Assembly: GCF_000217815.1 (NCBI RefSeq)
Contig: NC_015707.1
Location: 1,352,014-1,416,013, forward strand
Length of the DNA: 64,000 nucleotides
Source of the DNA: Pseudothermotoga thermarum DSM 5069
GTDB lineage: Bacteria > Thermotogota > Thermotogae > Thermotogales > DSM-5069
Reading direction: 5' to 3'
The stretch's first letter is position 1; the number at the start of each line of letters is the position of its first letter. Below, piece after piece: positions 27,634 to 62,528 of the stretch. The notes under the pieces are model-generated. The model searched no databases and was not told the DNA's origin. It saw only the letters and a list, made by a program, of their open reading frames with translations. A program made the position numbers and the translations under genes.

Positions 27634-28537
27634 TCAAATCTTGTATTTGGAAGCCAATTGCTCCAAGTCAGAGACAATTTGATTGAGTGCTTCTGTGATA
27701 TTCAACAAGCTTTTCGTTTCATTGGTTTGCTGTTCTACTGCTGTTGAAACTCTCGAAAAATCTGCTTTCAAAGTCTCGACGTTGCGAACTATTTTATCCG
27801 TGGCGGCAGCTATCTCTTGAACTGCTCCGCTTTGCTCTTCACTTGTCGCAGCCAAATCGTTTGTTAAAGAAGAAAACTTATCTATTTCTTTTACCATTTC
27901 GCTTATATCTTGCACCGCTTCTTCCATGATCTTTACAACATTTCCAAGTTCTTGAGTGACATAACCCCCGCCTTTGGCAACTGCATCTGTCAACTCCATG
28001 ATATTTTTCAGAGTTTCTGAAATGGCTTGTGTTGACCTTTTGCTTTCCTCAGCAAGTTTTCTTATTTCGTCCGCAACAACTGCAAATCCACGTCCTGCTT
28101 CTCCAGCTCTTGCTGCTTCTATTGCCGCGTTGAGAGCCAAAAGGTTTGTTTGTTCAGCTATGCTAGATATCGTGTTTGTAATCACTTCTATTTGCTGGGA
28201 CATTTGAACAAGTTTCTCCATAATTGCCATGGCTTGTTTGCCTGTTGTAGACAGCAAATTCACGTTGCTTGCAAGGTTTTGAATTGAGGAAGACGCTTTC
28301 TGACCTTTCTGTTTCAGCTTTTCCACGCTTTCTGCAAGTTTTGCAGCATTTTTGGCAACGTTTTCAGCTCCTGACGAAATCTCTTCTACCCCACTGTTAA
28401 CCTCGCTTATAGACTCTGAAATCTCACCTATTAGCTTGGTCGTTTCTTCTGCCAGTTGATTCACATCCTGAGACAAACTTGTGGCTTTCTGCACATTTTC
28501 AACAAGTTTATTTGAAAAATCCGTTGCACTATCTTGG
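27634..28537 (-). pseudogene. C-terminal half of an IS-split chemoreceptor
   Basis: Encodes the cytoplasmic signalling half of a methyl-accepting chemotaxis protein, including [20 protein letters not shown] and [19 protein letters not shown]. It lacks sensor, TM and HAMP segments, which lie beyond the insertion sequence at 28542-29261. A GTG at 28494 could start a 286-residue soluble fragment, but no good ribosome site precedes it. Joining this part to the N-terminal half after removing the IS and one ACCT copy restores one continuous frame. Confidence 0.93.
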
Positions 28538-28541
28538 ACCT

Positions 28542-29261
28542 GTCAACTTAAGAAGGAAAACTGCACTAATAGAAGAAATGGAAATAGCCACTTCACTATG
28601 TCCTCATCCCTCCTCTTGTACCATAACCTGCTTATGTTAAAACGCCTCAGCCTGTACCTTTTTATCCCTATCACGCTCTCAACAAGACTCCTCTCCCCAA
28701 ACCTCTCATGCTCGTGTTCCCAATATCCCATATTCTCTTCGCTCGCTTCCCAGTACCATGGCCCTTTGTCCGTTATTATCCTCAACTTACCTGTCACTCT
28801 CTTCTTCACCATCTTCATCACCAAGCTCGCTTTGTCCTTCTCTCGCGTTTTGCTGACCAACGCATAGATCACTTTCTTCCTCTTAACCTCAAACGCTATC
28901 CATACATACCAGCAGTAACCGTTTATGTTCACCTTCATCTCGTCTACAGCTACTACTGCATTGCCTTCTATCTTCTCAGCAAATATCTCTTCTTTCATTC
29001 TTGCCCACCATTTCCTCAAGGCTTCATGACTGACTCCAATTATGGCTGCTGCCTTCCTTAATGCAAGTCCATAAAAGTACAAAACCAATGCAGATACTTT
29101 CGCCTCATGTGGAACTCTTTGTCTTTGAAAAAGGTTTGGTATAATTTGGTATAGGTACTCGGTGATATTTGTTGTTGTAACTTTCATCTTTACGGGAACC
29201 TCCTTTCGGTGAGAAGAGTTGGTTCCCGTTTATTTTATCGTATTTCCCGGCTTAAGTTGAC
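28542..29261 (-). mobile_element. 720-bp insertion sequence interrupting a chemoreceptor gene
   Basis: The ends carry an 11-bp perfect inverted repeat, GTCAACTTAAG at 28542-28552 and CTTAAGTTGAC at 29251-29261. Outside them is the direct repeat ACCT (28538-28541 and 29262-29265), a 4-bp target duplication. One transposase gene fills the element and its stop codon lies within the left repeat. The transposase looks IS6-like, but that family usually makes 8-bp duplications, so family placement is tentative. Confidence 0.93.
28543..29187 (-). CDS. DDE transposase, IS6-like
   Basis: 214 residues. The N-terminal helix-turn-helix reads LALRKAAAIIGVSHEALRKWW. A DDE catalytic core follows, with acidic residues in VVAVDEMKVNINGYCWYVW, RIITDKGPWYWE and SLVESVIG. 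The GPWY after the second Asp recalls archaeal ISPfu-type IS6 transposases. AAGGAGG precedes ATG 29187. The frame is intact over the whole element, so the copy may still be active. Confidence 0.87.
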   Translation of the reverse strand: MKVTTTNITEYLYQIIPNLFQRQRVPHEAKVSALVLYFYGLALRKAAAIIGVSHEALRKWWARMKEEIFAEKIEGNAVVAVDEMKVNINGYCWYVWIAFEVKRKKVIYALVSKTREKDKASLVMKMVKKRVTGKLRIITDKGPWYWEASEENMGYWEHEHERFGERSLVESVIGIKRYRLRRFNISRLWYKRRDEDIVKWLFPFLLLVQFSFLS

Positions 29262-30340
29262 ACCTCCTCTTTCAAATTAACGATTTTTGCTATGCTATTT
29301 CTTAAATTTTCAACAAGCAGGATAAGGACTTTTGAGAGCTGTCCAGTTTCATCTCTGCTTTTTACTTCGAATTTACCGGTAAGATCACCCGAAGCAATTT
29401 GTTTTGAGAATTCCGTCAAATCAAGTATGGGTTTTGTGATGACCCTTCCAAATAGAAAACCTATTACAATACTTACTAAGACTGCTACGGCTGTTGTAAG
29501 AACACTCTTTTTCAACGATGCAATAAAGGGGGCGTTGAGCTCAGATTCAAATATTCCAGCGCAAAGCATCCATTCGGCGCTCTCAACAGGTGCCATTGCA
29601 ACCAATCTTTTTATCTTTTCAAAAACGTATGAAACGTACGAAACAGATTTTTTGGCTATTTGCTCTTCAATTGGTTTCAAAGCAGGATCCAACTCTGAAA
29701 GCTTTTTTGAAACGTATTCTTCCTTTGGATGTGCAACAATTTTCCCTGTAAAATCGCTGATATAAGCATATCCTGTTTGTCCATATTTAACCGAAGAAAC
29801 AAAATCCTGCAAAAGTTTTTGTGGCATCACCGCGCCGAAAACACCTTCTGCTACTCCTTCGTAAGAATAAACTGGAACGGCAAAGACTATTGATTTAACT
29901 CCTTCCCAGTTGATTCCTGTAGCCACAAAATAGGATCTACCTTCGTTAATAATTGCATTGAAAAACCCCATTTGAGACAGATCTATTTCCTTGTCCTTCA
30001 AGGTGTAGGCTTTACCCTCGAAATTTGCAAAAAACCAATCCACAAATCCCAGTGGCTCAAGTTGATCTATCTTCGCTTTCAATGTCATCGTGACAAAACT
30101 TTTTTCAAAGAGCATGAGAAAAGTCTGAAAATCTGCCGAAATAGTGCTCAGAGTAGCAAGCCTACTTTTTATCCAATTATCAACTATTAACGATTCTTTT
30201 TCAGCTTTTTGCTTCAAGCTGTTTACAGCGGAATTCAACGATAGATTTCTGATTTCAAGAAGGTTGACAACAGTTAGCACTGCTGCGGTGAGAACAACCA
30301 AAAGCAAAACCAAACTTATCACTTTAAACCGAATTCCCAC
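29252..30340 (-). pseudogene. N-terminal half of an IS-split chemoreceptor
   Basis: From GTG 30340 (AGGAGG 8 bp upstream) this part encodes a TM helix (about 5-27), a Cache-type extracellular sensor (about 30-270), a second TM helix and HAMP (about 285-345). The coding frame enters the insertion sequence and stops two codons inside it. The undisturbed gene would have been about 660 residues. As it stands it gives a membrane sensor stub without a signalling domain. An upstream in-frame ATG at 30373 overlaps the ribosome site region and is less likely. Confidence 0.93.
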
Positions 30341-30433
30341 ACACTCAACCTCCTTTTGAGAACATTTCTTCATTTCGTTTTCATTGTATCATAAAGTAGT
30401 AGTTAAAAATAGTATAAAGCAGGAGGTGAAAAG

Positions 30434-49493: not shown

Positions 49494-50188
49494 ATTTTGT
49501 GTCTGGGAAAGGGTTGAAAGGGTATCCTTTCAGCTTTATTAGTTCTGTCTCATTACTTCCTTACTTTCTTCCTCTTTGATTCTAACAAAAGCCCGTTCTC
49601 CTTCATTACCCTGTATACCCTCTTTTTGTTTATCTTCCAGCCTCTTCTCCTCAGCATCGCCCATATCCTTCTGTAGCCAAAGCTCGGATGCTTCCCCTTC
49701 AACAATAGTATCTCTCCTATTACATCCCCATCATCCCTTTTCCGTTTGTATCCTCGCTTTTTGTAATAATATCCACTCCTGCTCATCCCCAAATATTTCA
49801 TTGCTTCACTTATGCTAAAACCTTGCTCTATTAGCTGCCTTGCTATTTGCCTCCATTCTGTGTGACAGTCTTTTTTTAATGTCTCTATCACTATGGCTTG
49901 CTTGCCTATGATCTGCTCAAGTTCTTGGATCTTCTTCTCAAGTTGCTGAACTTGGTTGGTATTCTCTGGGCTTTCCAATGCACTTCTACCAGCTTCCAAA
50001 AACCTGTCTCTCCATTTGTAATACTGTGCTTGGCTAATCCCATATTCCTTACATATCGCGGCAACCGTTTTGTTGCCTTTAAGTCCTGTGAGAACAATTA
50101 CCATCTTCTCTTCTGCTGAAAACCTGCTTTTTTTCATACCATTGCCTCCCTATTCTTAGTTTATACTTTCCTGCTGTCTAAATATTCA
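49491..50188 (-). mobile_element. IS3-family element, internally deleted
   Basis: Imperfect inverted ends: TGAATTTTGTGTCTGGGAAA at 49491 and, on the minus strand from 50188, TGAATATTTAGACAGCAGGA. GGG lies directly outside both ends, consistent with the 3-bp target duplication of IS3 elements. At 698 bp it is about half the usual IS3 length because the transposase has lost its rve catalytic core. Confidence 0.78.
49553..50137 (-). CDS. truncated IS3-family transposase
   Basis: 194 residues. The OrfA-type helix-turn-helix (TVAAICKEYGISQAQYYKWR) and leucine-zipper coiled coil (VQQLEKKIQELEQIIGKQ) are followed, in one frame, by the start of OrfB with its HTH_21 region (HPSFGYRRIWAMLRRRGWKI). It ends at ESKRKKVRK, just before the rve integrase domain, so no DDE residues are present and it cannot be catalytic. 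It might still bind the ends. Confidence 0.87.
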   Translation of the reverse strand: MKKSRFSAEEKMVIVLTGLKGNKTVAAICKEYGISQAQYYKWRDRFLEAGRSALESPENTNQVQQLEKKIQELEQIIGKQAIVIETLKKDCHTEWRQIARQLIEQGFSISEAMKYLGMSRSGYYYKKRGYKRKRDDGDVIGEILLLKGKHPSFGYRRIWAMLRRRGWKINKKRVYRVMKENGLLLESKRKKVRK

Positions 50189-50272
50189 GGGAGGCAATAT
50201 ATCTTTCTCTGCGCAATCTTTTGCATTCTTTGAATGAGTTTCAAATCTTAGAATGATGTCAACTATTCTCAT
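50186..50272 (-). pseudogene. 5' fragment of a HEPN-like gene, partner of the MNT gene
   Basis: ATG 50272 overlaps the MNT stop as ATGA. It encodes MRIVDIILRFETHSKNAKDC and eight more residues before a stop supplied by the end of the IS3-family element. This start resembles HEPN-domain proteins, which usually follow MNT nucleotidyltransferases as toxin partners. The catalytic part (RxxxxH in HEPN toxins) is gone. Confidence 0.6.
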
Positions 50273-50649
50273 GCCAGAACCTTCCTTTTTATCCTTTCGT
50301 ACATATCAGACATTTCTATGTATTCTCTGAACACCATCCGTTTTATCTCAAGAAGTTTTTTCTCATCCCTGCAAAAAATCTCTTTTCCATGCTTGAAAAC
50401 CTCAAACTGGATGTGTAAGGGGAGTCGATGGAAAAGCACAACATCAAAATTCGGCGAATACATACTCCCAATCTCACCTTCTATATATTTGTCTGGATTT
50501 CTCACAACAACTGCTATATCTATATCAGAGATTTCCTTTGCTGTTCCTTTTGCATAGGAACCAAAAAGGATGATGGCTATAACTTCTGGAAAACCCTTAA
50601 TTTTCTCTATCACGGTATTAAAACAATCTGGATCTCTGACTTTCATCAT
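50269..50649 (-). CDS. MNT-type nucleotidyltransferase (MntA-like antitoxin)
   Basis: 126 residues of the minimal nucleotidyltransferase family. The catalytic motif is ILFGSYAKGTAKEISDIDIAVV (G-S-x-A-x-G...S-D-x-D), with a third acidic residue near FDVVLF. In complete systems MntA inactivates the HEPN toxin HepT by adding AMP. Here the partner gene downstream is cut off by an IS3-family element, so this antitoxin is probably orphaned. GGAGG precedes the ATG. IS3 relics lie on both sides. Confidence 0.85.
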   Translation of the reverse strand: MMKVRDPDCFNTVIEKIKGFPEVIAIILFGSYAKGTAKEISDIDIAVVVRNPDKYIEGEIGSMYSPNFDVVLFHRLPLHIQFEVFKHGKEIFCRDEKKLLEIKRMVFREYIEMSDMYERIKRKVLA

Positions 50650-50659
50650 GCCTCCTCGC

Positions 50660-50845
50660 CTCCATTCTCGTCTGCTTCAGAAGAGGTGGCGGATGCTTGG
50701 GTGACGGTGGCGGGGTGGAACTGGTTCGGTTTGCTCGGCTTTATTTGCTCCGTTCCACCCCTCCTTGCTTTCCTTCGCTTCAATTCTAACAAAAGCCCGT
50801 TCCTGTATACCCTCTTCGAGAGTTCGGATAATACGCTTCCACGCC
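50660..50845 (-). mobile_element. second IS3 transposase relic
   Basis: On the minus strand the reading KRVYRNGLLLELKRRKARR continues GTEQIKPSKPNQF. It matches the place where the transposase at 49553-50137 stops (KKRVYRVMKENGLLLESKRK), with four codons deleted, and goes on into the region that copy has lost. ATTCTAACAAAAGCCCGTTC (50778-50797) is shared exactly with 49580-49599. A 10-bp inverted repeat, GGGGTGGAAC/GTTCCACCCC (50712-50721, 50752-50761), lies within it. Confidence 0.7.
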
Positions 50846-50958: not shown

Positions 50959-51912
50959 TTAATCACCAATTGCGTACAATTCTCCATCGCTGGATCCCAC
51001 GTAAATTGTGCCATCTGAACTTATTGCTGGAGACGACCACACCTCACCACCTGTTTTGTACTTCCATTTCAACGTTCCGTTACTGTTCAAAGCGTAGATG
51101 TATTCATCCCTTGCTCCTACATAAACCGTACCGTCTTTGCTTATCGCCGGTGATGATGGCACCAAATCATCAGTTTGAAACCTCCATTTCAACGTACCAT
51201 CGGGATTCAAAGCGTAGATATATCCATCATACGATCCAACATAAATCGTGCCGTCTGCGTCTATCGCCGGAGATGATCGTACCCATCCACCGGTTGGATA
51301 GCTCCATTTCAATGTTCCATCAGGATTCAGAGCGTATAAGCATCCATCGTACGATCCAACGTAAATCGTGCCATCCTGCCCTATCCCTGGAGACGATCGC
51401 ACCGCTTCACCAGTCTTAAACTTCCATTTCAACGTCCCATTTGGATTTAACGCATAGATATTTCTATCCCATGATCCAACATAAATCGTACCGTCTGAAC
51501 CTATCGCTGGGCTTGACTGCACATTGTCACCAGTTTTATACCTCCACTTGAATGTTCCATCGGGGTTCAGCGCGTATATGTTTCCACCATCCGATCCCAC
51601 GTAAATCATGCCGTCTTTGCCTATCGCTGGGGATGATAACACCCTTCCGGCAGTTTTATACTTCCATTTCAATGTTCCATCGGGATTCAAAGCATAGATG
51701 TATCCATCCGCTGACCCACGTAAATTGTGCCGTCCGAGCCTATAGCTGGAGACGAGATCACACGATCATCAGTTTCAAATCTCCACTTCAACGTTCCATT
51801 CGGATCTAAAGCATAGACATTTTTATCCCACGACCCAACGTAGATCGTGCCATCTGAACCTATCACTGGAGATGATTCCACGCTTCCACCGGTTTTGTAC
51901 ATCCACTTCAAC
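50959..51912 (-). repeat. eight tandem 120-bp coding repeats
   Basis: Each unit codes one propeller blade of exactly 40 residues, apart from the missing base in unit 2. Unit-to-unit DNA identity is high by eye, which would favour slippage or unequal exchange. Confidence 0.85.
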
Positions 51913-52067
51913 GTTGGTGTTTGTGGTCCTGAATATGGGCTTCTTCCTGTGTTCTGTGCATCTCCCCTGAATTTTGGCCAAGGGCTGTTTGCAAGACTTG
52001 ATGCCACACAACTTACCGCAAGCCATAAACATAGCGCAAACAGCAAAACAAACACTGACCTTTTCAT
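50959..52067 (-). pseudogene. eight-bladed PQQ-like beta-propeller lipoprotein with a 1-nt frameshift
   Basis: A signal peptide with lipobox-like AVSC is followed by a linker and eight 40-residue repeats of the form TLKWxYKTGxxVxSSPAI, then DGTIYVGSxDGxIYALNPDG. The frame breaks in repeat 2: GTGGGTCAGCGGATGGATAC should be GTGGGTTCAGCGG to keep VGSADGYIYAL, so one base is missing near 51714-51715. Upstream (51687-52067) and downstream (50959-51690) parts are otherwise intact. Either the gene is newly broken or the sequence has an error. An eight-bladed surface or periplasmic propeller is the expected fold; ligand unknown. Confidence 0.88.
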
Positions 52068-53917: not shown

Positions 53918-56494
53918 TCAATCGAGTTCTTTTTCCTCGATTTCGATTTTTCCTTGCCTCAGAGCCTCTTCTACTTTGTCTTCGTATTCCGTGGATTCAA
54001 TGCTTCCGCCACTCATTTTGATTTCGACCCTGATGTCATGCTTATTGAATCTTTTTGCCAAGAGGAGAACGATTCGCACTATCTCAGACAAATTCTCTTT
54101 TGGTACCCTTAGCTTCAGTTTCACATTTTTGTATTCATGAATCCCAGTTTTTGGTGAACTGTAAGCTTCTTTTTCATCAACTGGCTCGAGGATTTGCTGT
54201 GCAGATTTCACAGGTTCATACTGATCCTCTGGAAAGTAGGCAGGTTCTACCTTTGCTTCCTCACGTTTCTTCAAGCACAGTTTTTCTGAAAGTATGATTT
54301 CGCCATCGACAAGCTCCACTTTTGCTTCTTCTTTAAAATACAAGCACTCCGGTTCGCCCTCCTTCAGGTAACCCAAGCCAAACAGGCCGCTTTTAACACC
54401 TTGTGCTATGCTCTTGATGAAAGCCTCTTTTGACAATACTCGCATTTCTCCCGGCGTTCTCAGAAAAGTTTCGTAGAGCGTTCTCGTTTCCAGATACTCT
54501 TTGTCTTCGGGGAAATACTTGCTCTTGATCACAAGAGGGGAGATCTGCTCAACAATTTCACCTTCTTCGTCTTTTAGTCGTCTATATATCTCAGAAGTCA
54601 ATGCTGTTTCACTGTAGGCTGGAATTCCTAAATCTATCGTTCTGAAAACATTCCTCCCAGGAACGAACAGCTTCCGATAGTACCTTCTTAGCTCTTCGTA
54701 GACTTTGTTCTTCGCATTTCTGATTTTGTTTTCCAATTCCTGCCTTTGATTCTCTGTTAAAGAAATCCGTTTGTCCGAGGCTACAAGTTCTTGAGCAATA
54801 AGTCTTCGCAGGAATCTGTGAAAGCCGTCTTTGCTTGTTTCATCCGTACAGAGGAAAAACAATGTGTTGCGATATGTTCGAAACCCTTCCCCGTATTTTT
54901 CCATAAACTCCATCTCAGGTTCGGCTTTACTTAGTATGACGAGTTTGAATCTCTCGTCGTCCGGAATGTCTTTATGAGACTGCGGCCATATGTAGACTTT
55001 GAATTTCGATTCCCTGTCTTTGGCTATAGAGTCCTCTATGATTTCTCGCTCTTTATGGATAATTTCTTGCTCCGATACATTTTCCTCGCGCATGAGGAGT
55101 ATTCTGTTCAAATTGGGTTGATTCGTGAAGTACAACCCCTCGTCGGACAGGTAAAACTCTTGTCTTTTCAATTCCATGACGATTGTGTCCACGATTGAAC
55201 TTGGTATATCCTTCGGATACACGGTGCTTATCTTAATTTCTCGCATCGTTGTTCCTTTCTCCGTTCCACCGGAATGCGAGTACATGAAAATTGTTGTGCC
55301 AACAACGGTTCCAAGTTTGAAAGGCCTGAATGTGGATTGTATTTCCCTGTCTACCTTTGAGGCACCGGAATCTGTTGAAGTTATGTCTTGAGAAATGATA
55401 CTGTCCCATTCTTCGCCGATGTGTTTTATCAATTCTCTTCTTATTTCATCGTTCCTCAAGTTGAAGTCGCCAAGTCTGATGAACGGCAGTCTATCATTCA
55501 GAAGATCGTGTACAACCAAGGAAAGCAATCTCAACACTCCCCTTGTTCTCTGAAAAGAGGGAAATGACCCCCATCTTTTGTACAGCACATCTACAACTTC
55601 GGGCTTAAACGGATAGCTTCTGATAAACCTTTCCCTGTAACTTATGGCTTCTTCGCCGTCTAAAAGTCCTTCTACTTTTGCGTATTCAACGAATTGATCC
55701 ACAATTTCTTTTACCTTAGCTTCATCGACAGATTCAAAGAGTCTTTTTCTTATTACGTGCCCTATCTCTTCTTCACCAACGGGAGCATGGATTTTCTCGG
55801 TTCTGCCGGTTACCTTTTGCAACTGCTGAAGGAATCTCTCCGCATTTTCGCTGTAGTGATCAGGTGCGCTCGACGGTAACGTCAGCACCAAGAGGGCTTC
55901 TCCCACCGCAGATACTGCTCCTGTTAACTCTTGCATGAAGGCAAGTGTCTGAGCTGCCAGGTTGGAGTCTCCAACCTTAACCGCCTCAGCTTTTGTAACG
56001 TACTCCAGGACCTCGTCCATCAGTATAAGAACAGGCGAATTCTCAGCAAGAATCCTTAACAGTTTGTCCTTGCCAGGAGCGTTATCTCCACTTGTGATTT
56101 CCACTTTCCCCGTAAGCTGCCTTTCTATTTCTTCCCACAACCGTATTTCCTTCGGGTCAAAAGCGGTGCCGTCCAGCACAACAGTTTTAGCGCCCCACTC
56201 TTGAGCCTTGTGGTAAAGTGCTATCAGCGTGTGCGTTTTACCCCCTCCGAAGGGAGTTTGGAGTTGAATCACAGAATCTCCACTTTTCCCTTTCAATCGA
56301 TTCTCGGCTATTGAGAATATCCTCCTTAGGTTCTCCGTCTCATATGTTCTCTTGAAAAACAGATCCCTGTCCTGATACTCAATGGGTGCTTTTTTAATGA
56401 GCACCTGCCATAAGTCAGCTGCGAAAACATCCATCGTAAGCTTTCCTTTGATTATGTCCTCATGGGGTCTTGCCACCAAAGTAAACGCCATCAT
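53918..56494 (-). CDS. DUF499 AAA+ ATPase of an Hma-type defence operon
   Basis: 858 residues. Walker A is [14 protein letters not shown] (about 79-92), the characteristic DUF499 form, and Walker B is [11 protein letters not shown] (about 155-165). The C-terminal half is helical with charged stretches ([20 protein letters not shown]) and ends in a small beta domain and an acidic tail. DUF499 ATPases occur almost only beside DUF1156 methylases and helicases in defence loci; their job is presumed to be remodelling or gating of the complex. ATG 56494 overlaps the methylase stop by 4 bp; AGGGAGG lies upstream. Third gene of the operon. Confidence 0.88.
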
Positions 56495-59178
56495 GCGAAC
56501 AACCTCCCTTGACCCCCGCCTTTTATTTCCTCGATCAAACTGTCTTTGCCCGTTAAGAAACCATCAAGAAGCCTTTTCTCCTTGCTCTCATTCCCCAGAG
56601 TTTCTGAGATGGCTTGAGCCACTTTGTAAAAGACGTCCTTGGTACCGTATCCAGTTTCGGCAAGAACTTTCTTCATCTCATCCTTTCTTCCCTCTTTCCA
56701 GCAAATGAGAACCCTGTGCAAAACATCGATCAATTCCGATGAATTCTCCAACTCTTCAAGCTTTCTTTCATGCGGTCCAAGCACCTCTATAAATTCTTTC
56801 ACCTTTCGGATGAACCCTTTGTTCCACTCTTTTTCGATATCAATTCCCGTAGACTGGGCAAGTTTTCTCGCATCGTCAAACTCTACCTTTGATTCTCCAT
56901 AGGTCCATCGCCACAAGATGTAAAACCGCGTGAGTGCGGAAAGCTCCGAAGCTATCCCATTGTGTAAAATCTGCTTAACTGCGTAATCTGTAACCACTTC
57001 TCTAACATATTCAAGTAATCTGCTTGTTGCTATCTCGTTTCCTTCAAAGTCCATCACTTTTTTGTACCTTCCAAAAATTTCGATCGAAGCGCCTATGGCT
57101 GAGATGAAAAAGTCCGCACCACTCACTCCCTCTTGCCATAACCTTTCCAACTTTTCGGATAAATAGTCTTTTATTTCCTGCTTCAACTCGCTGAACCATC
57201 CAATGTCTTTTCTCTCGATTTTCCTGCACACAAGGTAGATGGACGATGCCAAGGCAGCAGATTCCTTTGCTCTCAATCTTGCCTTCATCTCCGTATCAAT
57301 AGGCCACGAAGCCGTTACCACAAGTTCCGAATCCAAAAGAGAATTGATCAAAGTTTCCCACCCAGAGGTCGATTTGTGACCGTAAACAATCGTCACTATG
57401 CCGTTCGGTTTCAGAACACGGTACATTTCTTGGAAGGCTTTTTTGAGCATTTCCTCAAAATATTTCTTTCCTGCCTCCAAACCTCCATGAGTGTGAGAGT
57501 AAGCTACTATTTCCTTTGCCTTTGGCGTCAAAGGTGTTACAAACAATTCTGGATACAGATCTCCGATACTTCTTTTGAGCCATACGTAGAAAAAGTCGGA
57601 AATATAAGAATAAGGAACGTTGTCATAATACGGCGGATCCGTGAAAACTGCGTCGAAGTAGTTGTCAGGATAAGGAAGAGACGTGGCGGAGGACTGCATA
57701 GTTGTAGCATAATTAGAACCAACTTTTGAAACTTCTTCAATCACTCGTTTAACTTGGTTCAGCATACTTTCAAAGGTTCCAGCTAATATAGGGGAAAATA
57801 AATTCAATTCAGCATAATCCCAAGACATTGGTAACGCTTGTCGAGCAAAGGTGTTTGGAATGAATTCCCACTGTGGATGCCATCTGCATAAATTACTTGC
57901 AAAATCAGAGGTTCTGCTTACTCCCAAAGCCAAATAACTTACCACAGCCTTTGCGTAGTCTTTGTCGTACCCTTCTTCAAGCATCCTTTTATACGCAAGT
58001 CTGACTTTCTCCACAAAGGTGATCAAAGCCAGTTTTTGCCGAGAGTTGAAAAGATCTCCCCATTTTGCCATTCCATATCTTTGAACCCTAAATCCCAGAG
58101 TTTCTTTTGGTGGTAGCTCTTCATCCGGCACAGGATCGAGCAACCACTCGTCCATCAGTTTTTCCCTTTTTTCCCGCAGGTATTTTTCCGCTTCCTGGTA
58201 AGTTTCCAGATCTTTCCTGGTAGCAATTCTGTATTTCTTACCGCTCTTTGAATTCAAAACTATTGCCACCATTTTCTGTCCCGCTTTGCCCTGCTGAAAA
58301 AGCTTTCTCGTCGTTTTATCGTCTATCACAGAACCGCACACCGGGCATACCACAACGGCTCTTGAAACGGTTCCTTTTTCCGGATCAAAACCCTTCGGCA
58401 TTTGTTCGTATCCATCTCCAACTATCTTAAACTTGACCTCTTTTCCTTCCACATAAGGATACAGTGAAACCTTTTTCCTATCTTTCTTTGCAAGCCAGTA
58501 TTGACGCATTAGCGGAATTTCCGCGTTGCAGGCTGGATTTTGGCATGGAACGGTTCTCGACCAAATGTATCCCACAGGAATTTCACCGTTTTCATCCTTT
58601 GGATAAAACTGTCCGATTTCTTTTTCGGCTTCTTTTAACACCCAGTTTCCCCACTTTTTAACGTCCTCAACAAGAAGATTTGCTTGAGCATCTATTTCTG
58701 CCAAACCTACCTTGTTTTTTACTTTCACGATTTTTCCATATTTTTGAGGATATTCGAGCGTGCATTTCAAAATTAGAACAGCAACTGGATTGTATTCCGC
58801 AGCGTGGGTTTCACAGCCAAGTCTCAGGGCTTCCAGTGGTATCGATCCTCCTCCTGAAAATGGATCCAAAACTCTTGGAGGTCTTCCCCCGTTGGCGTTT
58901 AAAATGTCTCTTCTTGCTTTTTCAATGATGCTGGGATTTAACGAATTTTCCCATTTTGAAAGTTCTATTATGAACTGCCTTGTCTTATCCCACTGGATTG
59001 GGTCGTCCGCTGCAGGAATTAAAGCTGCGTACGCAGTTGCCCTTGAGCTTGCCAGAGGTCTTCTTGCCCACCAGATATGCAAGGTTGAAATATGCCCGTG
59101 TCTTATGTTTTTTTCCTTGGCGGATATTTCGCTGATTTCTTTGACTGGAAAGCTATTTTCTATAAATCTTTCTTCCAT
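56491..59178 (-). CDS. DUF1156 DNA N6-adenine methyltransferase of an Hma-type defence operon
   Basis: 895 residues from ATG 59178, which has GGAGG upstream; an open frame continues to 59364 inside the helicase gene but lacks a ribosome site. The DUF1156 N-terminus reads [23 protein letters not shown] motif I is [19 protein letters not shown] and the catalytic motif is [13 protein letters not shown], in the order of N6A enzymes. Cys pairs ([14 protein letters not shown]) suggest an inserted zinc ribbon. It probably marks host DNA so that the helicase/ATPase partners spare it. It overlaps the helicase by 19 bp and the ATPase by 4 bp. Confidence 0.9.
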
Positions 59179-62100
59179 TTCAGTACCTCCATCCTTTTTC
59201 TTTTCCATTCCTCTGGGTTGATTATGTACCTGACAACCTCGACTTTCTCTATTGCTTTGAGATTTTCTGCTGGATTGTTTATAATGTAAAGTTCTGGATT
59301 GTTTTCGGCGTTTGTCACAACATACAACCAATACTTTTCCCTGAGCATCCTGGCTTTGATCCATTCATTCGGGGTTAAGATGATTTCTCCGTCCTTTGCC
59401 CTCGCCTTTACTTCGATGTATCTGATTTCTTCCTTCCCTCTTGAGCGTATATCAAAGCCCAGGTTTTCCCTGGAGACATCCTCTGGTACCCTTCCTTGGT
59501 CCCTCTCGTATTCCATGGCTATCTGCATTCCTATTTTTTCAATCTCTTCGTTTTCCGCCATTTCCCCTACCTGCGGAATAACCCTCACAACAGTCAGGAG
59601 CTCTGGCGTTGAAATTGTCAGGCTTTGCTCTTCCTTTATCTCTTTTTCAAGATCCTCTTTAGCTTTTTCATACCTGCTTTTTTGCTCTTTTTTCCTGTCT
59701 ATTGCGGGTTTTACCTTTTCCCCTCTTTCTTCTCTTTCGTAAAGTTCGGCAAGATCTGCATCAAGCTCAAGTATAAGGTATTCAAGAGATTGAACTCCGT
59801 ATTTTTCTTTGATTTTTGCTTGCCGCTCCCTTTCTTTTCTTATCTCTTCTTTATACTTCTCTACGGCTTCTATCACAAAAGGCAGAAGATCGCTATCTTT
59901 TATTTCCATCGATTCGGCGGGTTCTTCAGATGGCGCCAAATCCCAGAGAACAGAAGGATCGATTTCTCTCTTCTCTTTGCCATTATCGTAGACTGCAATG
60001 ATTTTTCTTCCCGCGATTTCACCTTTTCCGTCTCTGATCTCTCCTATGTAAAACCAAATGAACCCGTCGTACGTTCCGGATGGGTCTGTGAAAACGGCAC
60101 CTTTTTTAACGTTTTCGACGAAATTTTCCATAACCCATTCAATCAAAGCTTCAAAAAGTGGATGACCAAAGGATACAAATTCCGAATCCGAGCTTTTAGA
60201 GGCTTTTTCTTTGTCGAAGGTTATCTTTTTATAGCTGCTTACTAACGGTCCAAATCTGTTTTTGAAGTCAACGTCGTTTGCAATCATTTTTATCTCGGCA
60301 GGTATTGACTCGACAGCTATGAATCCATCCTTGGTCTCCCTGAATTTACCACCAGATCTTTCGAACGCTTTTTTGAAAAACCTTTCCAAATATTCAGGTA
60401 TAAGTCTGCATTCTTCCGCTTTTTCAAACATCTCCTTGATCTTGGAATAATCTATAAATTTAGTTGCGAGAGATTCTCCGAGGACTTGCTTGATTTTTGA
60501 AATGTACTCTTGATCCACTCTTATGTCTATTTGGCTCAGGATCTCGTCCATGGTTTTTGCCTGAGTAACAGCATCAACAATTAGTTGATAAAATTCTCTG
60601 TCCGAATAGATATGACCGACAACATCAAAGACTTTGTCGCTTCCAAGCTTGTTCTTGATTTCTTCAAGTTTTTCCAAAAGCTTTGTTAGAATTTCCCCTT
60701 CTTTGGTGTCCTCTGCAACAAGGTTGAAAATGTAAACGTCTCTCGTCTGACCATATCGATGAATCCTTCCCATCCTTTGTTCCAATCGTGTTGGATTCCA
60801 TGGAATGTCGTAGTTGATCATTAAATGGCAAAATTGAAGGTTAATTCCTTCTCCGGCAGCTTCAGTTGCAACCATCACTTCTGTCTCATTCTTGAAAATC
60901 TTCTCGGCTTCTATTCTATCTTGTAGTTGCATCGACCCGTGAATGAAGTTGACTTTATAGCCCCAACTCCGAATCTTGCTTACAAGGTAGTCTAAAGTGT
61001 CCTTTGATTCAGTGAAGATGAGAATCTTAGGTTCACCGTTCATTTCTCTTATCTTCTTGAAACCTTCTTCTATGGCTTTCTTGAGTTCCAGAAGCTTTAC
61101 CTCAGATTCCTCATTTATGATTTCCTTAACCATGTCGATCAAACCATCTATCGTTTTGATTTCTTCTTTCAGTTCTTCGGCACTTTGCGCAAATGTCAGG
61201 GTTTCCCATTCTTCTTCTTTCTTCCACCTGTCTTGTTCCTCAAGTTCTTCAAGATCTTCGAGTGTCTCGTAGTCTATGGAAGGTTCTTTTTCTCTCTCCT
61301 TGCCTCCTTTTAGAATTTCTTCAAGCCTACTCTTTCTTCTTCTTAGTGACTGCAGAAGTGCATAGTTACTCGACGCCATTCTTCTTTGAAGAATCAAAAG
61401 TGCGAACGCCACATTTCGCTTCTTGGTGTTTGCCAAGGATTTGTTGTACTGTTCAACCACATACCGTGAAACGGCGTTGTAAAGCATCTTTTCCTTCTCG
61501 GACAGCCTAAATTTGATGGTTTGCGTAAATCTTCTCGTGAAGATAGGTCTACCTTGAAAGTCTCGCAGATCTTCTTTCAATCTTCTTATGAACAGAGGAT
61601 TATCCTTGTTTTCAAGGGATTTCTCCACCAATTCGGAAGTTGCAAAGAATCCCGGATAAAGTAAGTCCAAAAATAACCTGAAGTTGTCTGGATCTCCTTT
61701 ATGGGGTGTTGCTGTAAGAAATAGAAGATGATTTGACGTTTTCGAAAGAATCTCTCCCAGCTTGTACCGCTGGGTTTTTTCGGTTTTGTTCTCCCCATAA
61801 GAGTAAGCAGCCATTTTGTGGGCTTCGTCCACCACAACCAGGTCCCAATGAACGGAACTTAGGGACGGTAAAATATCATCTTGCTTCGCAAAATCCAGAG
61901 AGGAAATCACTTGATCGTTTACTTCCCAGGGATTCTCTCCGTAGTGACTATCAAAAGTGTGCCTATCTAAGACTATGAACTTCTCGTTGAATTTGTCACT
62001 CAGTTCCCTTCTCCATTGGTCCTTTAAATGACCCGGTACAACAATTAGTATTCGAGAAGCCAGTTTTCTGAGCTTCAGTTCTTTGATTATCAAACCTGCC

Positions 62101-62492
62101 ATCACTGTTTTGCCCGCTCCAGGGTCATCCGCTATCAAAAATCTTATTCGAGGTTGCTTTAACGCGTATCCGTAAACAGCTTCTATCTGAAAGGGCAAAG
62201 GATCGATTTTGGAGACGTTCATCGCCAAAAAGGGGTCAAACAAAGAAGCATACTTAAATCGGATAGCTTCAACGAAGAGAAAGACATCCTGAGCTGAAGA
62301 AGAAAAATCTATCATCTGGTTTACAATCTGTAATTTCTCGATATCTCTCTTTCTCAACAACTGATCGATGTGCCGTTTCGTATACAAGGTGGAGCCAACG
62401 ATTCTTACGTGATCTCCTATTATGTCCACTTTTTCTATCTTAACTGGTTCGTTCCAATAATCGCCTTTCACAACTTCTCCACCGTTTAGCAT
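59160..62492 (-). CDS. SNF2-type helicase with C-terminal DUF3883 domain, Hma-type defence operon
   Basis: About 1110 residues. Superfamily 2 motifs: [39 protein letters not shown], then [31 protein letters not shown] and [13 protein letters not shown] charged coiled-coil region (about 880-990) leads to a C-terminal DUF3883 domain (about 1020-1090) with GFDIRSRG and [12 protein letters not shown], a D...ExK pattern like PD-(D/E)XK nucleases. ATG 62492 is chosen: GGGGGAG is 5 bp away, too near for GTG 62498. First gene of the operon. Confidence 0.9.
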
Positions 62493-62528
62493 TACCACTC
62501 CCCCCGCTATAGTCCCGGCGTCTTTTTA

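Follow-up and report, generated by a model that had tools for sequence, protein, structure and literature searches.

The window analysed here is a stretch of 64,000 nucleotides of Pseudothermotoga thermarum DSM 5069, whose genome is a single contig of 2,039,943 bases. Positions 53918–62492 contain three intact open reading frames on the minus strand, hmaA, hmaB and hmaC. The genes and their main elements are as follows:

59160..62492, minus strand: hmaA, Snf2 helicase with a C-terminal PD-(D/E)XK (NOV_C/DUF3883) nuclease, 1110 aa
59280..59543, minus strand: NOV_C/DUF3883 nuclease domain of HmaA, with D1014, E1027 and K1029 (Pfam NOV_C, 88 bits)
59160..59178, minus strand: hmaA/hmaB overlap, 19 bp, hmaA stop with hmaB start, read from the sequence
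56491..59178, minus strand: hmaB, DUF1156 DNA amino-methyltransferase, 895 aa
58336..58545, minus strand: zinc-ribbon part of HmaB, with C212, C217, C278 and C281, invariant in 23 homologues
57628..57639, minus strand: catalytic DPPY motif of HmaB, invariant in 23 homologues
56491..56494, minus strand: hmaB/hmaC overlap, 4 bp (ATGA), from ORF coordinates
53918..56494, minus strand: hmaC, DUF499 AAA+ ATPase without an N-terminal HEPN domain, 858 aa

The overlaps of 19 and 4 bp between three intact genes are those of the original prediction. The hmaA gene starts with ATG, an alternative GTG at 62498 being possible. ATG 59178 is the likely start of hmaB, rather than the mechanical ORF start at 59364, because homologues start at the equivalent place. 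A GGAGG site precedes the 19-bp overlap, and a promoter scan gave chance-level signals only. Neither a toxin nor any other gene is embedded in the trio. The adjoining genes encode a pyrophosphatase and β-propeller proteins, none of defence type, and the defence-island context consists of nothing beyond one toxin-antitoxin relic. The accessory zone full of IS relics that had been proposed was overstated, since what lies within 5 kb is a single IS3 fragment and a single MNT/HEPN relic. Elsewhere in the window (27634–30373), an IS240-type transposase fragment (28543–29187) lies between two chemotaxis-receptor pieces that resemble one interrupted gene.

All three proteins match the corresponding PADLOC models, HmaA with 668 bits (E 5.8e-201), HmaB with 479 bits (E 7.7e-144) and HmaC with 391 bits (E 2.8e-117). 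Combination, order and strand are also right for Hma, as predicted, and the three proteins do not fall into unrelated families. DUF1156 in HmaB (78 bits) and NOV_C/DUF3883 in HmaA both score above the Pfam cut-off, and HmaC matches DUF499 with 142 bits. HmaA additionally matches Pfam SNF2 and Helicase_C; the only Pfam hit of HmaC is a sub-threshold AAA_22. The catalytic motifs said to be intact are indeed invariant across 21 to 26 homologues: the helicase motifs and nuclease residues D1014, E1027 and K1029 of HmaA (26 sequences), the SAM motif DPF.GGG, DPPY and the four cysteines of HmaB (23 sequences), and the Walker A GGGKT and Walker B DE of HmaC (21 sequences). The C-terminal part of HmaC is the most divergent, with 18–30% identity.

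The structure model of HmaA (pLDDT 82) has an N-terminal β barrel (strands 7–57), and its best structural match in the PDB is RapA (1094 columns, E 4e-33). The HmaB model (pLDDT 86) retrieved generic methyltransferase folds only from the PDB (E 3e-3 or worse), and a PDB sequence search with HmaC retrieved no relatives.

Relationship to named systems

The window encodes an intact Hma operon, i.e., a Type-1 BREX-related (BR) system, and such operons had been catalogued before. The name Hma (helicase, methylase, ATPase) was given to the trio in 2021 by Payne et al. (PMC8565338); in 2026 Rakesh and Krishnan redefined it as the Type-1 BR system, which they report from 2446 taxa, and cited published phage-defence evidence for HmaA (PMC12839542). 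The original prediction was correct that Hma had been catalogued, and since the 2026 definition its mechanism is no longer unplaced. In gene content and gene order, the window trio matches Hma of 2021. The paper of that year calls HmaB an m5C methylase (PMC8565338), whereas the window protein has DPPY, a motif of amino-methylases (N6A or N4C).

Type-1 BR systems are defined by a RapA-like Snf2 helicase, a C-terminal PD-(D/E)XK nuclease, a zinc-ribbon amino-methylase and the absence of PglZ (PMC12839542). The window locus shares the tripartite organisation and the lack of PglZ, and its DUF1156 methylase contains one zinc ribbon, a four-cysteine zinc finger in the TRD insert, together with DPPY. 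The helicase layout of the type (N-terminal Tudor, Snf2 core, inactive REase and α+β) is covered by the whole-model match of HmaA to RapA, and the extra C-terminal PD-(D/E)XK nuclease is present with its active residues D1014, E1027 and K1029 retained. Genes for PglZ, iSTAND, HKD and DUF3780, which mark BR Types 2 and 3 (PMC12839542), are absent from the neighbourhood of the trio. Many Type-1 BR ATPases bear a HEPN RNase (PMC12839542); the window locus differs in having a HEPN-free ATPase variant and no embedded genes. The ATPase of the type is expected to end in an RRM; in HmaC, the C-terminal part is the least conserved.

Two other systems contain related proteins. HmaA scores 514 bits against the PADLOC DrmD model, indicating that the helicases of Hma and DISARM are related, but it is below the NCBIfam DrmD cut-off (394 of 610 bits). 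No drmA, drmB or drmC ORFs lie near the helicase and methylase genes and a DUF499 ATPase is present, so the locus is not a DISARM system. Type-3 BREX (BrxC, BrxXI, BrxHII, PglZ) has a homologous ATPase, methylase and helicase (PMC12839542). However, the window trio lacks PglZ and adjoining BrxA/BrxB-like genes, and HmaC is a DUF499 protein rather than BrxC (391 versus 23 bits), which places the locus outside BREX as well.

Distribution and possible mode of action

The distribution of the operon is patchy and non-syntenic. Of the 103 genomes of the phylum, 8 have a strong HmaB match, that of P. thermarum itself among them, and the operon neighbourhoods are unrelated among the relatives inspected; the operon is thus not core and syntenic. 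An empty-site comparison yielded no clean syntenic empty site, because only 3 of the 11 family genomes have the flanking pyrophosphatase. Outside the phylum, close homologues occur in Aminicenantes, Aquificota, a deltaproteobacterial MAG, Thermococcus, Geoglobus and others, making transfer across phyla evident.

Wherever all three genes occur together (69 loci), they follow the order A-B-C on one strand. In 24 of these loci neither intergenic gap exceeds 150 bp, which is also the case in the window; the remaining loci offer space for embedded genes. As far as the Payne et al. 2024 preprint is described in PMC12988326, its Hma-embedded defence candidates are additional genes, of defence or toxin-antitoxin type, inserted between the core genes of Hma, and several of the relatives examined here show this too. 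Relative to that description, the HmaB clade of the window has an embedding site also inside the methylase gene, making two genes. One genome (G029) has a Schlafen/AlbA_2 protein embedded between hmaA and hmaB (L026:6332–7699) and an MNT-HEPN pair between hmaB and hmaC (L026:10429–11072).

By analogy with restriction-modification and BREX, the intact Hma operon (Type-1 BR) probably works as a restriction-modification-like system, in which HmaB would mark, HmaC sense and HmaA cut. HmaB would methylate a base amino group in a short motif and so mark the host genome, the target base probably being adenine, at N6. The DPPY motif occurs in N4-cytosine methylases too. HmaC, the DUF499 AAA+ ATPase, would assemble on or sense unmarked incoming DNA and license HmaA, whose RapA-like Snf2 translocase would move along the unmarked DNA and whose C-terminal PD-(D/E)XK nuclease would cut it. 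On this analogy we infer the methylated base, self-marking, sensing by HmaC, DNA cleavage by HmaA and antivirus activity in the organism. This reading is favoured by the PADLOC and Pfam matches, the invariant catalytic residues, the gene overlaps and constant gene order, the patchy distribution with transfer across phyla, the RapA-like fold of HmaA, the published family definition and a virus HmaB described below. The ambiguity of DPPY, the m5C label of the 2021 paper (PMC8565338) and the non-defence neighbours count against it.

Alternatively, HmaC might sense infection or unmethylated DNA, upon which HmaA would attack host DNA or transcription and infected cells would die. Such abortive infection is suggested by the resemblance of HmaA to RapA, a Snf2 protein bound to RNA polymerase, by the HEPN RNase on many Type-1 BR ATPases (PMC12839542) and by toxin-antitoxin genes being common cargo in relatives. 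We consider it unlikely, as HmaC of the window has no HEPN domain, the trio has no embedded toxin, and a helicase with its own DNA-type nuclease next to a dedicated methylase fits restriction. The RapA-like helicase, and neighbours that are non-defence apart from one toxin-antitoxin relic, would also suit an epigenetic or transcription-recycling module without defensive function. This housekeeping role is highly improbable for a trio that is missing from most relatives, lies at differing places, is spread over bacterial and archaeal phyla and is accompanied by defence and toxin-antitoxin cargo in relatives.

An HmaB gene is also present in the 63-kb virus record IMGVR_UViG_3300013885_000001 (L143:8001–10619), which has terminase and portal genes. 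Its product is 59% identical to HmaB of the window, and the gene adjoins HsdM and HsdS genes. HmaA has no match in this 63-kb record, and HmaC none within the 18.6 kb examined. If methylation by HmaB protects, a virus HmaB without HmaA points to self-methylation as an anti-Hma strategy, with the proviso that the record may be a fragment. The whole trio is present in two other virus-classed contigs.

Split methylase genes in relatives

In a genome of the same family (G004), hmaB consists of two genes (L025:5513–8905). The first half (508 aa) contains DUF1156, the SAM motif and the zinc ribbon, and the second (410 aa) contains DPPY and the C-terminal part. Genes for MNT and a HepT-like HEPN protein lie between the halves, with ATGA overlaps at the junctions. 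This insert was also considered as an intein, which was rejected since MNT and HEPN are encoded in other frames with their own starts.

A break of hmaB at profile position 492–494 is found in ten genomes (G004, G103, G104, G113, G154, G159, G160, G162, G272 and G309). In G113, G154 and G159, contig ends keep the halves from lying on one readable stretch, and the split was read from a half ending or starting at the break. Further split genes are located at L187:5199–8500 (G272), L188:5562–9447 (G309), L063:2069–9575 (G103) and L152:281–5049 (G162). G309 has two HmaB genes (C1:758089–760773 and C1:1466561–1468072), one intact and one split.

The cargo within the split gene varies. It is MNT-HEPN in G004, G154 and G309, an MNT with a shortened partner in G272, a frameshifted MNT in G104, and coiled-coil genes on the reverse strand in G160 and G162. 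G103 has a DarT-macrodomain fusion, an ATPase and a three-gene module; this module (L063:6416–7931, L149:231–1708) is common to two Aquificota genomes (G103 and G113), inside split hmaB in both, and its L063 copies have no Pfam match.

The split falls just before motif IV, in a loop that the predicted structure of HmaB places between helix 469–484 and strand 492–495. It coincides with the end of the following feature of the window gene:

57703..57813, minus strand: most variable stretch of HmaB (residues 456–492), 26% identity versus 73% in residues 493–560

Breaks elsewhere in HmaB (L051, L053, L065 and L073) are without cargo and resemble frameshifts. No split HmaB was found in the Thermococcus group, where all nine strong matches are intact.

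The probable relic region downstream of the operon

Downstream of hmaC, the window contains four features that bear on this pattern:

50646..50726, minus strand: probable N-half tail relic of another HmaB, FHPATVTQASATSSEADENGGEEA*, with an ATGA overlap between its stop and the start of MNT
50269..50649, minus strand: orphan MNT nucleotidyltransferase (antitoxin type), Pfam Polbeta 67 bits
50186..50272, minus strand: truncated start of the MNT partner (HEPN), MRIVDIILRFETHSKNAKDCAE..., from translation and the homologous start in G272
49553..50137, minus strand: IS3-type transposase fragment, Pfam HTH_Tnp_1 and HTH_21

The orphan MNT, on the hmaC strand and 3.3 kb downstream of that gene, is by far nearest to the MNT within the split hmaB of G272 (L187), both by phmmer (E 5e-49) and by DNA alignment. 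The frame directly upstream of it ends PATVTQASATS-SEADENGGEEA and is coupled to MNT by ATGA as in G004. Scored with the HmaB profile, this peptide reaches 30.7 bits, whereas the best of ~53,000 background peptides over all blocks scores ~20; a second profile gives 28.2 bits, versus 11–18 in 20 shuffles. It breaks off ~10 residues beyond the break in relatives. As its sequence is not that of the intact HmaB in the window, the peptide would derive from another HmaB. The MNT partner is cut off after its first residues, at the IS3 relic, and the window contains no complete HEPN partner. Apart from the peptide, no further remnants of HmaA, HmaB or HmaC rise above background at 44–54 kb. That the HmaB-like peptide is part of a genomic repeat was considered and rejected, since the repeat copies elsewhere stop before the peptide. 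Based on the 12-residue match and the context, we regard this arrangement as the probable remains of a split-HmaB cassette.

Two further observations concern this region. An imperfect direct repeat (77%; window 50735–50802 and 49530–49598) flanks the MNT and IS3 relics, and the genome has a third, partial copy at another place. A PQQ-type β-propeller gene (50959–52067) is broken into two frames, 50959–51690 and 51687–52067.

The loop before motif IV may be a recurrent embedding site, with HmaB made as two co-expressed subunits flanking toxin-antitoxin genes (MNT-HEPN, DarTG-like), such that damage to the methylase operon would unbalance the toxin; the window would keep the relic of one such split-HmaB cassette beside an intact, unsplit operon. 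We give this proposal an even chance. The split genes could instead be decaying pseudogenes or assembly errors, given the frameshifts in some copies (MNT in L062, the HmaB C half in L147), the origin of several from MAG contigs, and a relic in the window that is broken too. Against this, the break point is identical in ten genomes, with four changes between split and unsplit states on the best tree (four to five on bootstrap trees, although strongly supported branches force only two). The second halves have their own start codons and all motifs, with ATGA coupling in G004, and both G004 and G272 are on single contigs (2.17 and 1.83 Mb). In the pairs tested, dN/dS is 0.35–0.46 for N halves and 0.07–0.18 for C halves, values that point to purifying selection on both. 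Decay or misassembly thus appears to be the less probable explanation, at perhaps one chance in several, than a two-subunit methylase.

The mechanism of Hma/Type-1 BR systems rests mostly on inference so far. The window operon is a compact, intact and probably heat-stable set without embedded genes, convenient for reconstitution. The locus itself adds little that is new; it is the split-methylase pattern of its clade that makes follow-up worthwhile. A split methylase with toxin-antitoxin cargo is not reported in the literature searched, the coverage of which was partial; the point not mentioned there is that the methylase of this clade has been repeatedly broken at one loop by toxin-antitoxin cargo, yet is retained under selection. 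If the halves work together, they would constitute a natural split methylase and offer a route to asking why toxins sit inside a self-marking gene.
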